DNA from: Taklimakanibacter deserti
Lineage (GTDB): Bacteria; Pseudomonadota; Alphaproteobacteria; Rhizobiales; Aestuariivirgaceae
Direction of reading: 5' to 3'
Length of the DNA: 64,000 nt
Assembly: GCA_003574785.1 (NCBI GenBank)
Contig: QORU01000006.1
Coordinates: 62,001-126,000, forward strand
The notes beneath the pieces were generated by a model, which was given only the letters and a program-made list of their open reading frames with translations, searched no databases and had not been told where the DNA came from. Below are positions 17,699 through 23,408 of the stretch, in pieces (positions within the stretch are counted from its first letter, which is position 1; the number at the start of each line of letters is the position of its first letter). A program made the position numbers and the translations under genes.

Positions 17699-19222
17699 TC
17701 AACCAGCGGCGGTGTCCAACATGCTGGGCGTCATAGCCATTGCCGGCGGGGGTTCAAGCTCAGCTTCCCGTTTCGGCCCCACCAGGAACAGGCCGGCGGC
17801 GGTCAGCGCCAATGCCGCCCAAATCCATGCGTTGAGGCTCTCGCCCAGCAGCAGCATGCTCCAGCCGATGCCGGCGATGGTCGTGAAATAGGCAGCCTGG
17901 CCGGTGAAGACGGCGCCCAGATTGTTGATGAGATAGAGGAACAGAACATTGGCGGAGAGCGAGGCCGCGGCGATGAGCACGACGGTCAGCTCCAAGGCGC
18001 CGGGGATGGCGCTCGGATAGATCATCTCGCCGGTCGAAAGCGCGATCGGCAGGAGAATGGCGGCAGCGGTGAGTTGCATGAGCCCGACCGTCGTGACGGT
18101 CGGAATATGCTCCGGCCGTTTTGCCGCCAGCATGATGCCTTCCGCCGCATAACAGGCCGGGATCGCTAGCGCTATGACCGTCCACAGCAGGCCGCCTGGC
18201 ACCGCACCCGTGAATTTGTCATAGAGGATGACCAGGACCCCAAGGAGGCCAAGGAGCAGGCCTGCAAACCGCGACAGGCTCGGCTGCTCGATCCGCGTGA
18301 AGGCGGCGAAAGCGAAGGCGAGGAAGCCTTCCAGCACGATGATGATGGAAATGATGCTCGCCTCGACCTTGCCGGCAACGATGAACAGGAGCGATTCGCT
18401 GACCACGGCGCCGAGGAGCGCATAGGCCAGGAAATAGCCCCATGGTATCTCACGCGCCTTCGGCACGGTTCCCTTGGCCACCGACCAGCCTATGCAGCAA
18501 AGGCCGCTCAGCAGGCTGACCCAGAAGGCCATTCCGAAGGGATGGGCCTCGAGTCCGGAGGCCATGCGCGAGAGCGGCGCGACCAGGCCCCAGATGAGTC
18601 CGAGCACGATGAGCCCGAAGCCGCCGCGCAGGGTCTTTATGGACTGCCGGAGACGCCGCTCGCGCTCATAGACCTTCTGCGCGGCATCGGCGAAAACCCG
18701 CGCCAGGTCGCCCAGCGCATCATCGCGCTCGGAGATCTCGCCGAGGCCAAGCTTGGAGGGATTGTAGTTGCCGACCTTCAGGATCTGGGCAGCGCGCGCC
18801 AGTTTCTCGACCTGGTTCAGATAGTCGACCTCGGCGTCGCGGACATATTTCTTCTGAAGCAGCGTATTGACGCGGGCCCGGAAAATCACCGGATCGAAGT
18901 TTTTGGGGAGAAAGTCTTCCGCGCCGAGCTCGATCGCCGTGACGGCGCTCTCGGTGTCATCGAGCGAGGAGATCACGATGACGGGTATGTCCCTGAGCGC
19001 CGGGTCGGATTTCATGGCCTTGAGCACGTCGAAGCCATCCATCTCCGGCATCACGATGTCGAGGAGCACCGCATCGACCGGATGGCCACGCATATGGTCG
19101 AGCGCCTCGCTGCCGCTTCCCACCGCATGGCATTGATGGCCGAGGGAGGTTGCCGCACCCGCGAGCTTGAGCCGCATGGCCCGCGTATCGTCGACGACGA
19201 GTATTCTTCCCGTTCTGCTCAT
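17699..19222 (-). CDS. Response regulator receiver domain fused to EamA/DMT transporter
   Basis: A 507-residue fusion. Residues 5-120 are a full receiver domain: Asp11/Asp12, phospho-acceptor Asp55 in VLLDIVMPEMDG, Ser85/86 and Lys107. Residues 135-195 form a HAMP-like helical linker (LNQVEKLARAAQ, then DDALGDLARVFADAAQKVYERERRLRQ). Residues 200-485 are a ten-helix EamA transporter with two repeats. The start overlaps the Hpt gene stop by four bases. Known EamA proteins export or import small metabolites and are not usually phospho-controlled. Here phosphorylation probably gates transport directly. No DNA-binding domain is present. Substrate unknown. Confidence 0.88.
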   Translation of the reverse strand: MSRTGRILVVDDTRAMRLKLAGAATSLGHQCHAVGSGSEALDHMRGHPVDAVLLDIVMPEMDGFDVLKAMKSDPALRDIPVIVISSLDDTESAVTAIELGAEDFLPKNFDPVIFRARVNTLLQKKYVRDAEVDYLNQVEKLARAAQILKVGNYNPSKLGLGEISERDDALGDLARVFADAAQKVYERERRLRQSIKTLRGGFGLIVLGLIWGLVAPLSRMASGLEAHPFGMAFWVSLLSGLCCIGWSVAKGTVPKAREIPWGYFLAYALLGAVVSESLLFIVAGKVEASIISIIIVLEGFLAFAFAAFTRIEQPSLSRFAGLLLGLLGVLVILYDKFTGAVPGGLLWTVIALAIPACYAAEGIMLAAKRPEHIPTVTTVGLMQLTAAAILLPIALSTGEMIYPSAIPGALELTVVLIAAASLSANVLFLYLINNLGAVFTGQAAYFTTIAGIGWSMLLLGESLNAWIWAALALTAAGLFLVGPKREAELEPPPAMAMTPSMLDTAAG

Positions 19223-19584
19223 GGCATCCCCCCGTTCAATTCCGTGCCGATATAGGCCACGAGTTCCTCTTTGAGCGCGATACAGCCCTGGGCGATCTGC
19301 TCGGAACAGGCAACGGCATTGGCCACCGTCCCTCGCTTGCTCCTGAGCTCGACATCGGCGCAGAGTGCAGCAAGCGCGCTGTCCCCGAAATCCCGTGCGC
19401 TCGATTTGATCGTATGGGCGGCGCGACCCAGCGTGTCGAGCCTGCCCTCTCTCGCGGCGGCAAGGACCGACTGCGCCAGCGGCTCGGCCTCATCGATGAA
19501 GCTCTGCAGAATCTCGGCCAGGAGGTCCCTGTCGCCGCCGATGATTTCTCGCATGCGCTCCAGCGCCTGAAGTGAGATGCTCAC
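19219..19584 (-). CDS. Histidine phosphotransfer (Hpt) protein
   Basis: A 121-residue helical Hpt domain. The phospho-accepting histidine is His57 in [14 protein letters not shown]. The start is GTG at 19584, overlapping the kinase stop by four bases (gtga), and its stop overlaps the next start by four bases. It would relay phosphate from the kinase's receiver domains to the receiver of the transporter fusion. Confidence 0.9.
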
Positions 19585-22500: not shown

Positions 22501-23408
22501 AGTATCTTCTCGCTCGCGATCAGCGGCACCCCCAGATAGGCTTCGGTCGTGTCGTCCTCGGTAAAGACAAGGCCGCCAAGTGCGGTCTGCTCCGCGTCCG
22601 ACCCCAGAAGCAACGGCTGGCCGGTTCGGATGATATGCGATGTCAGCCCCTCACCGTAGGGATAGGGTTCGACATCCTGGTAGTCGCGATAGTGGGAATA
22701 TGGGACGGTGATGATTCCCGACTTGTCGTCATAGAGGAGGATTTCGGTAATCTCGGCTCGGAAAATCTCGCGCACCTTGTCGCCGACGATGCGCGTGAGC
22801 GATTGCACGGTCAGTGATTTTGTCATCGCCTCGCTGAGGCTGACCAGAGTAGCGAGTTCCTGGGCGCGCTTGTCCTTGGCCTTCATCAAGCGGTCGGACT
22901 CGGCCAGAACGTCCCGAACGCGATTCTCCTGGTCGCGCAACACCGTCTCTGTCGCCTTGAGCGAAATTTCGGCTTCCTTCTGGTCCGTGAGGTCGATCAG
23001 CGCGCCGATGTTGCGCACGACCCGCCCCTCGGCGTCCTTTGCATATTCGCCGGCCTCGCGGCCGTGCCGCAGCGTTCCATCCTTGGCACGGACCGTGAAA
23101 TCTACCGTATAGGGCTCACCCATTGCACGGCATCTCGCCTTGGTATCGAGATAATGTTGCCTGTCGTCGCCGAGCAGGCGAGCGGCGATCTTCTCATTGC
23201 TGTTCAATTGAACGAGGAACTCGCCGACCGTCGGCCCATGGATCAGGGCCGCTTCCTCCGAGATGTGGATGGGCTTGTCTTCCACTTCGTCCCAGATGAA
23301 GAAGCCGATCTTGGCGAGCTTCCCGATATTGCGCAGAAGGGTACCCTGATCGTCGACCAGCTTTTGCAACGCAACGGGATCAAGCGATGGTCTGCCATCC
23401 GTTCCCAT
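19581..23408 (-). CDS. Hybrid sensor histidine kinase: PAS, three GAF, HisKA, HATPase, two receivers
   Basis: A 1275-residue soluble kinase with no membrane segments. In order: a PAS domain (about 20-150), GAF domains near 190-345, 370-520 and 575-720, and HisKA with phospho-His764 in [11 protein letters not shown]. An HATPase with [12 protein letters not shown] (about 870-985) follows. Receiver 1 has Asp1047 (VILDMQMPH) and receiver 2 has Asp1194 ([12 protein letters not shown]). The first and third GAF units are near copies. It is the first gene of a three-gene overlapping operon with Hpt and the receiver-EamA fusion. It probably senses a cytoplasmic ligand or redox state through the GAF domains. 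The signal is unknown. Confidence 0.92.
21247..21790 (-). repeat. Internal direct repeat, copy B (third GAF unit of the kinase)
   Basis: This segment encodes [16 protein letters not shown] through the third GAF domain to [12 protein letters not shown]. It matches 22378-22922 both in protein and visibly in DNA: the stretch near 21721-21765 differs from 22854-22898 at only a few bases. It shows a partial internal duplication within the kinase gene. Confidence 0.75.
22378..22922 (-). repeat. Internal direct repeat, copy A (first GAF unit of the kinase)
   Basis: Partner of 21247-21790. It encodes [16 protein letters not shown] through the first GAF domain to [12 protein letters not shown]. The middle GAF domain between the two copies is clearly more diverged. 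Confidence 0.75.

Follow-up and report, generated by a model that had tools for sequence, protein, structure and literature searches.

The response regulators known so far are mostly DNA-binding, enzymatic or protein-binding switches. The output of PleD, for instance, is a GGDEF domain, and a relay of the TorT-TorS-TorR type consists of a periplasmic binding protein, a hybrid kinase, a histidine phosphotransfer (Hpt) domain and a response regulator. The locus described here lies in a 64,000-nucleotide stretch (the window) of contig QORU01000006.1 of Taklimakanibacter deserti (assembly GCA_003574785.1, positions 62,001 to 126,000, forward strand), and it encodes a hybrid histidine kinase, an Hpt protein and a fusion of a receiver, a HAMP-like linker and an EamA transporter of the drug/metabolite transporter (DMT) type. 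As judged from sequence, the three genes probably specify a four-step phosphorelay in which the output of the terminal response regulator would be a membrane transporter gated by receiver phosphorylation.

Several described systems share part of this arrangement. As in TorT-TorS-TorR, some relatives of the operon have a gene for a solute-binding protein ahead of that for a membrane-bound hybrid kinase, and two of the five relatives' kinases scanned with Pfam (loci L004 and L157) match TorS_sensor_domain. Unlike in that relay, most loci encode Hpt as a protein of its own, the last receiver sits on a transporter instead of a DNA-binding domain, and the window kinase is soluble and carries GAF domains. 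The SLC5/STAC kinases CbrA and CrbS likewise join a transporter fold and a two-component part in one chain, but there the transporter is at the sensor end of the kinase (PMC9100948), whereas here it is joined to a receiver; kinase and transporter are separate genes in the window, and the sole single chain seen (L160) has EamA instead of SLC5. The fusion also differs from PleD-type regulators in that its output is an EamA transporter. Proteins in which a receiver and a HAMP-like region precede a Ser/Thr kinase (P0121 and relatives) have a homologous receiver and linker, although their output is a soluble protein kinase and their linker is two residues shorter from Lys107 to Glu188. Finally, the EamA part shows, in the AF2 model, a whole-domain DMT fold that matches the LicB choline importer and the triose-phosphate translocator, and it shares the EamA repeats of such transporters; unlike it, the standalone relatives found here lack a receiver, and the fused domains form a separate group.

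The sequence-only reading of the window had described three genes with four-base overlaps and a kinase of PAS-GAF3-HisKA-HATPase-REC-REC architecture, and both descriptions hold. The open reading frame coordinates place all three genes on the minus strand, with overlaps of GTGA between kinase and Hpt (19581-19584) and ATGA between Hpt and fusion (19219-19222), and Pfam returns the kinase domains listed in Table 1. The Hpt protein matches its Pfam family at 46.3 bits (cut-off 24.6), while the fusion matches Response_reg at 84.4 bits (cut-off 30.2) and EamA (PF00892) in two stretches at 75.9 bits (cut-off 28.2), the best match covering residues 200-333. The catalytic residues claimed for the last two proteins, His57 in Hpt and Asp55 and Lys107 in the receiver, are present, and the whole receiver set (Asp11, Asp12, Asp55, Ser85, Lys107) is intact. 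Numbered by counting from motif positions, the kinase has His764 and two receivers with Asp1047/Lys1101 and Asp1194/Lys1247. Residues for all four sites of a His-Asp-His-Asp phosphorelay (kinase, kinase receiver, Hpt and terminal receiver) are encoded within one operon. A hydropathy scan found no transmembrane segment in the window kinase, and a promoter and terminator scan gave no signal above shuffle level.

The fusion is not confined to this genome. A search of 5.8 billion proteins, in which 7999 candidates were scored, yielded 593 receiver-EamA homologues at E 1e-10 or better. Both Pfam domains are found in 119 of the best 120 of these 593, the exception being the short P0012. Among the 118 full-length sequences that remain of these 120 once P0012 and P0019 are dropped as short, no sequence departs from Asp55, Ser85 or Lys107, while Asp11 is retained in 115 and Asp12 in 114. 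Named hosts include Aestuariivirga, Mesorhizobium, Rhizobium, Devosia, Hoeflea and Roseivivax, along with one metagenome-assembled genome (MAG) labelled Gammaproteobacteria and one labelled Rhodothermales. Databases name the homologues 'response regulator', and JGI calls some of them response regulator plus DMT permease. In an unrooted tree of EamA domains, a single branch (support 100/99) separates 35 fused rows from 49 standalone relatives, the pattern that a single origin would give. These rows come from 37 fused sequences, less L090 and L118, two fragments of the same broken gene that did not pass the length filter, and from 50 standalone ones, less L087, which is a fragment of a fused gene; two row pairs are identical. 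A lost stop codon, which the sequence-only reading had named as a possible undoing of the fusion, is ruled out, as is an assembly artefact, by the 593 homologues, the residue conservation and the grouping in the tree.

Within genomes the fusion is nonetheless sparse. Linker plus EamA was found in at least 8 of 292 genomes from the order of genome G003 (one copy, L152, being interrupted), at least 2 of 397 from the order of G002 (one with a broken frame), at least 5 of 69 from the family of G001 (whose own copy is broken), and at least 1 of 150 from the order of G001 and at least 1 of 337 sampled across the class, the match in each of the last two being the centre genome itself. These rates are lower bounds because the searches mostly scored only some candidates per genome.

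The surrounding operon recurs as well. Conservation was counted per locus, not per copy, over 26 loci that had been retrieved with either the fusion or just its receiver and linker, including the near-copies L150/L151 and L009, which has only receiver and linker with internal stops; L161 and L162 (repeats of L009 and L007), a third plasmid match and fusion pieces on G006:C190 lie outside the 26. A kinase core is near the fusion in 24 of these loci, on a gene separate from it in 23, and an Hpt lies within 3.5 kb in 23. Two of the exceptions, L007 and L009, have neither kinase nor Hpt and belong to one Granulosicoccaceae MAG, which we take to be gammaproteobacterial; the operon evidence comes from Alphaproteobacteria, going by host names or by the order or family sampled. 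The other Hpt exception is L152, where a transposase gene stands between kinase and fusion and neither the Hpt nor the first 75 residues of the receiver remain. The phospho-histidine is present in all 23 Hpts (21 by pattern, those of L159 and L002 by eye), ATGA joins the Hpt end to the fusion start in 10 of 15 loci checked, and Mesorhizobium plasmids have the identical gene order. In L158, kinase and Hpt form a single protein and the fusion is on the opposite strand. Since architecture and operon both recur, the fusion and its operon are beyond chance.

How far the Hpt is particular to these loci depends on the control. With the first Hpt profile, which favours the fusion loci because it was built from their Hpts, 17 of 69 other receiver loci (flanks up to 8 kb, other host taxa) had an Hpt and 3 of 69 had one in a reading frame shorter than 200 residues. 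A profile rebuilt from the two sets together raised these counts to 32 and 8 of 69, while the fusion loci still gave 23 of 26, or 18 of 26 under that limit on frame length. With the first profile, no Hpt was seen at any of 49 standalone-EamA loci, which are short, at about 3.7 kb. The co-occurrence with an Hpt gene that had been proposed for checking is thus borne out, at 23/26 against 17/69 or 32/69 control receiver loci and 0/49 standalone-EamA loci. An Hpt near any receiver is not rare, and a small, separate Hpt gene is much commoner at fusion loci. The rebuilt control is weaker than the first, but the separate-gene contrast stands, as does the evidence from residues and linker.

Between receiver and membrane, the spacing is fixed. 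The stretch from Lys107 to Gly212, a residue of the first transmembrane helix (TM1), counts exactly 106 residues in each of the 118 full-length homologues, whereas parts of the transporter and one part of the receiver differ in length. Within the linker, ten positions show no variation (Arg117, Lys125, Asp129, Glu131, Leu158, Gly171, Leu173, Phe177, Arg187, Glu188). In the AF2 model, receiver helix 5 reaches residue 150 and, after a break, a helix at 169-211 runs into TM1, so that the modelled linker is arranged like a HAMP domain except that the membrane lies at the opposite end. HAMP domains carry a DExG motif. With a mean identity of 45%, the linker is homologous to the one in each of the 117 long receiver-Ser/Thr-kinase-type proteins compared, every one of which has Arg117, Glu131, Gly171, Leu173, Phe177, Arg187 and Glu188. 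Among the 120 such proteins listed, the homologous linkers of two, P0233 and P0235, pass the HAMP cut-off of 25 (28.0 and 29.1). In the receiver-EamA family itself, weak, below-threshold Pfam HAMP matches occur in 5 of 25 full-length members and 6 of 8 linkers. A PDB sequence search with the linker gave one weak match (E 0.12), and one with a linker-plus-EamA profile gave none. The HAMP-like helix of the sequence-only reading thus stands as a conserved module that is HAMP-like by homology, but not as a direct match to the HAMP profile; from these comparisons the region is best called HAMP-like, not HAMP. Proteins P0121-P0240 form a large receiver-HAMP-like-Ser/Thr kinase family, with named members mostly in Gemmatimonadota, that has receiver and linker in common with the fusion. 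That the same receiver and linker also precede a protein kinase argues that the module drives outputs.

The claim of a complete ten-helix EamA transporter is supported by the helix list of the AF2 model (pLDDT 85.6), which has ten membrane helices between residues 200 and 481, and by the two Pfam repeats; hydropathy gave nine peaks, with none for the helix at 439-459. Gln442, Tyr445 and Glu461, among other residues, are common to standalone transporters and all fused rows compared, and at some sites the fused and standalone groups differ (for example Gly299 versus Pro, Glu312 versus Asp).

On the input side, the relatives are more varied. The kinases scanned with Pfam, that of the window and those of relatives, have PAS, GAF or TorS-type regions of their own. 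By hydropathy alone, with gene starts set mechanically, 6 of 21 kinases (the window's included) have no membrane segment, 13 have two and that of L154 has one; the segments in the L160 kinase are those of its EamA part only. Upstream of some membrane kinases there are SBP_bac_3 genes in L157 and L159 (and L158 by similarity) and a DctP gene in L004 (and L154 by similarity). In five further loci, a highly conserved secreted protein of about 251 residues is encoded by a gene whose end lies on the kinase start, and it is suspected to be a solute-binding protein. Pfam gave no match for its L002 and L006 members, NCBIfam gave only EhuB matches below cut-off (1.1e-06 and 0.00045), PDB sequence searches returned only stray matches, no likeness to the SBP_bac_3 neighbours was seen outside the signal-peptide region, and its AF2 model has a pLDDT of 35.5. 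Inputs that vary around a constant receiver-EamA protein are as expected of a relay output.

These observations suggest how the relay might work. Upon a signal read by its PAS and GAF domains, the kinase would autophosphorylate His764, and the phosphoryl group would pass to one of the kinase receivers, then to Hpt His57 and then to Asp55 of the fusion. The phosphorylated receiver could shift the register or dimer state of the HAMP-like coiled coil (residues about 111-211), which is predicted to run straight into TM1 and would thereby switch the DMT transporter on or off. The order of phosphotransfer, the gating, and the direction and substrate of transport are what we infer in this scheme. For the family as a whole, we lean, with some reserve, towards a class of response regulators with a transporter output, in which a relay fed by a periplasmic solute-binding protein or by cytosolic GAF sensors would open or close a DMT transporter through an inverted HAMP-like coil, from soluble switch to membrane.

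A number of results weigh against transporter gating by the relay. The placing of the receiver relative to the membrane domain is unsure because the model has a pTM of 0.64. Pfam HAMP (PF00672) gives no match in the window linker even at E 1, and a profile comparison of the linker with HAMP domains was weak, with 19 columns aligned only. The rebuilt profile finds Hpts at many control receiver loci, kinase and Hpt are both absent from the 12 kb of L007, and L011 and L153 have additional receiver-EamA copies at a distance of 2.5 to 6.3 kb from the Hpt. In L160, from Gemmobacter, the receiver-EamA part is the N-terminal part of the kinase, the place usual for sensors.

This last arrangement, in which the fusion stands in front of a PAS-PAS-HisKA-HATPase-REC-REC kinase, leads to the main rival explanation, that signals flow in reverse. 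EamA would then sense or transport a solute and tune receiver phosphate through the linker, acting as a membrane co-sensor or as a phosphate sink that feeds back on the kinase; the SLC5/STAC kinases are a known case of a transporter as sensor (PMC9100948). We regard such reverse flow as possible but unlikely, given that the kinase core is on a separate gene in 23 of 26 loci, that the scanned kinases have sensory regions of PAS, GAF or TorS type themselves, and that the same receiver-linker stands before a catalytic output in the Ser/Thr-kinase proteins.

Two further explanations are less likely. The departures of the fused group from its standalone relatives at sites such as Gly299 and Glu312 would suit a transport-dead EamA domain that merely anchors the receiver in the membrane, yet the model shows a whole DMT fold, every fused row compared retains Gln442, Tyr445 and Glu461, and some 280 transporter residues are hardly needed for anchoring, so that this idea appears improbable. 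More doubtful still, by a little, is a main output that is transcriptional, through the neighbouring BTAD-TPR protein or an unlinked receiver, with receiver-EamA as a side branch. The divergent BTAD-TPR gene is beside the operon at five close loci, the window among them, and a receiver-GNAT protein, a second possible output, is by the operon in L005 and L171; however, Pfam finds no receiver among the matches of the BTAD-TPR protein, that protein was not found in the fetched flanks of more distant operons, and receiver-EamA is the part that stays constant across loci. The sub-threshold winged-helix match of the BTAD-TPR protein leaves some chance of a transcriptional side branch through it.

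Table 1. Positions of the relay genes and domains in the window and of associated genes in the window and in related loci (locus numbering for the latter).
Feature	Position	Strand	Remarks
Hybrid histidine kinase, predicted cytosolic	19581..23408	-	1275 aa; PAS_3, three GAF stretches, HisKA, HATPase, two receivers
Single-domain Hpt protein	19219..19584	-	121 aa; His57 is the phosphoryl-accepting residue
Receiver-HAMP-like linker-EamA (DMT) fusion	17699..19222	-	507 aa
Receiver domain of fusion, residues 5-118	18869..19210	-	Asp55, Lys107
HAMP-like linker of fusion, residues 121-198	18629..18862	-	
EamA/DMT transporter domain of fusion, residues 199-483	17774..18628	-	Ten helices in model
Divergent BTAD-TPR protein	23621..25621	+	Sub-threshold winged-helix match; neighbour also in L001, L168, L169, L170
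Single 1353-aa chain, Gemmobacter	L160 5488-9549	-	Receiver, linker, EamA, PAS, PAS, HisKA, HATPase, two receivers; Hpt gene next
Secreted protein, about 251 aa	L002 4010-4765; L003 4007-4762; L006 4546-5580; L011 6634-7404; L152 3347-4102		Highly conserved; motif TLEWPPYT; gene end on kinase start
Integrase-type transposase gene	L152 6759-7925	-	Interrupts receiver-EamA operon
Receiver-GNAT acetyltransferase	L005 13441-14394; L171 5946-6932	+; +	Beside relay; second possible output

Other genes near the relay were also considered. In the window, downstream of the operon and on its strand, lie an MTTB methyltransferase and a flavin oxidoreductase (13674-17224, minus strand), and their link to the operon was set aside because the stretches fetched for L001, L168, L169 and L170 showed neither gene. 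An MTTB-family gene is also near the relay in the distant locus L006 (2945-4462, minus strand). A quaternary amine as transporter substrate is a guess. A small, secreted-looking protein (17299-17658, minus strand) begins 40 bases past the fusion and has an NCBIfam LIC10280-family match below cut-off. On the other side, genes for an RTX-repeat protein with a sub-threshold thioredoxin-like stretch, an ABC exporter and HlyD occupy 25948-32018 (plus strand), and a matching set is found in L169 (10009-16127, minus strand) by Pfam and in L170 (2943-9004, plus strand) by similar lengths and starts only. A role in anti-phage defence was rejected, PADLOC being null for Hpt and fusion with three weak matches in the kinase.

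No description of a response regulator with a transporter output was found among the titles listed in the literature searched, which does not by itself establish its absence from print. The parts are already known, and the fusion sequences are present in databases but, as far as found, unstudied. A single chain of about 500 residues contains receiver, linker and transporter, so control of the transporter by phosphorylation can be tested directly on purified parts. If the proposed relay is true, these proteins would be a conserved class of response regulators whose output is an integral membrane transporter, providing fast, non-transcriptional control of metabolite flux, and the operon would constitute a post-translational circuit for sensing and transport that contains no transcription step. 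The HAMP-like coil would then pass a signal on from a soluble switch to a membrane protein, opposite to the direction in which such coils usually signal.
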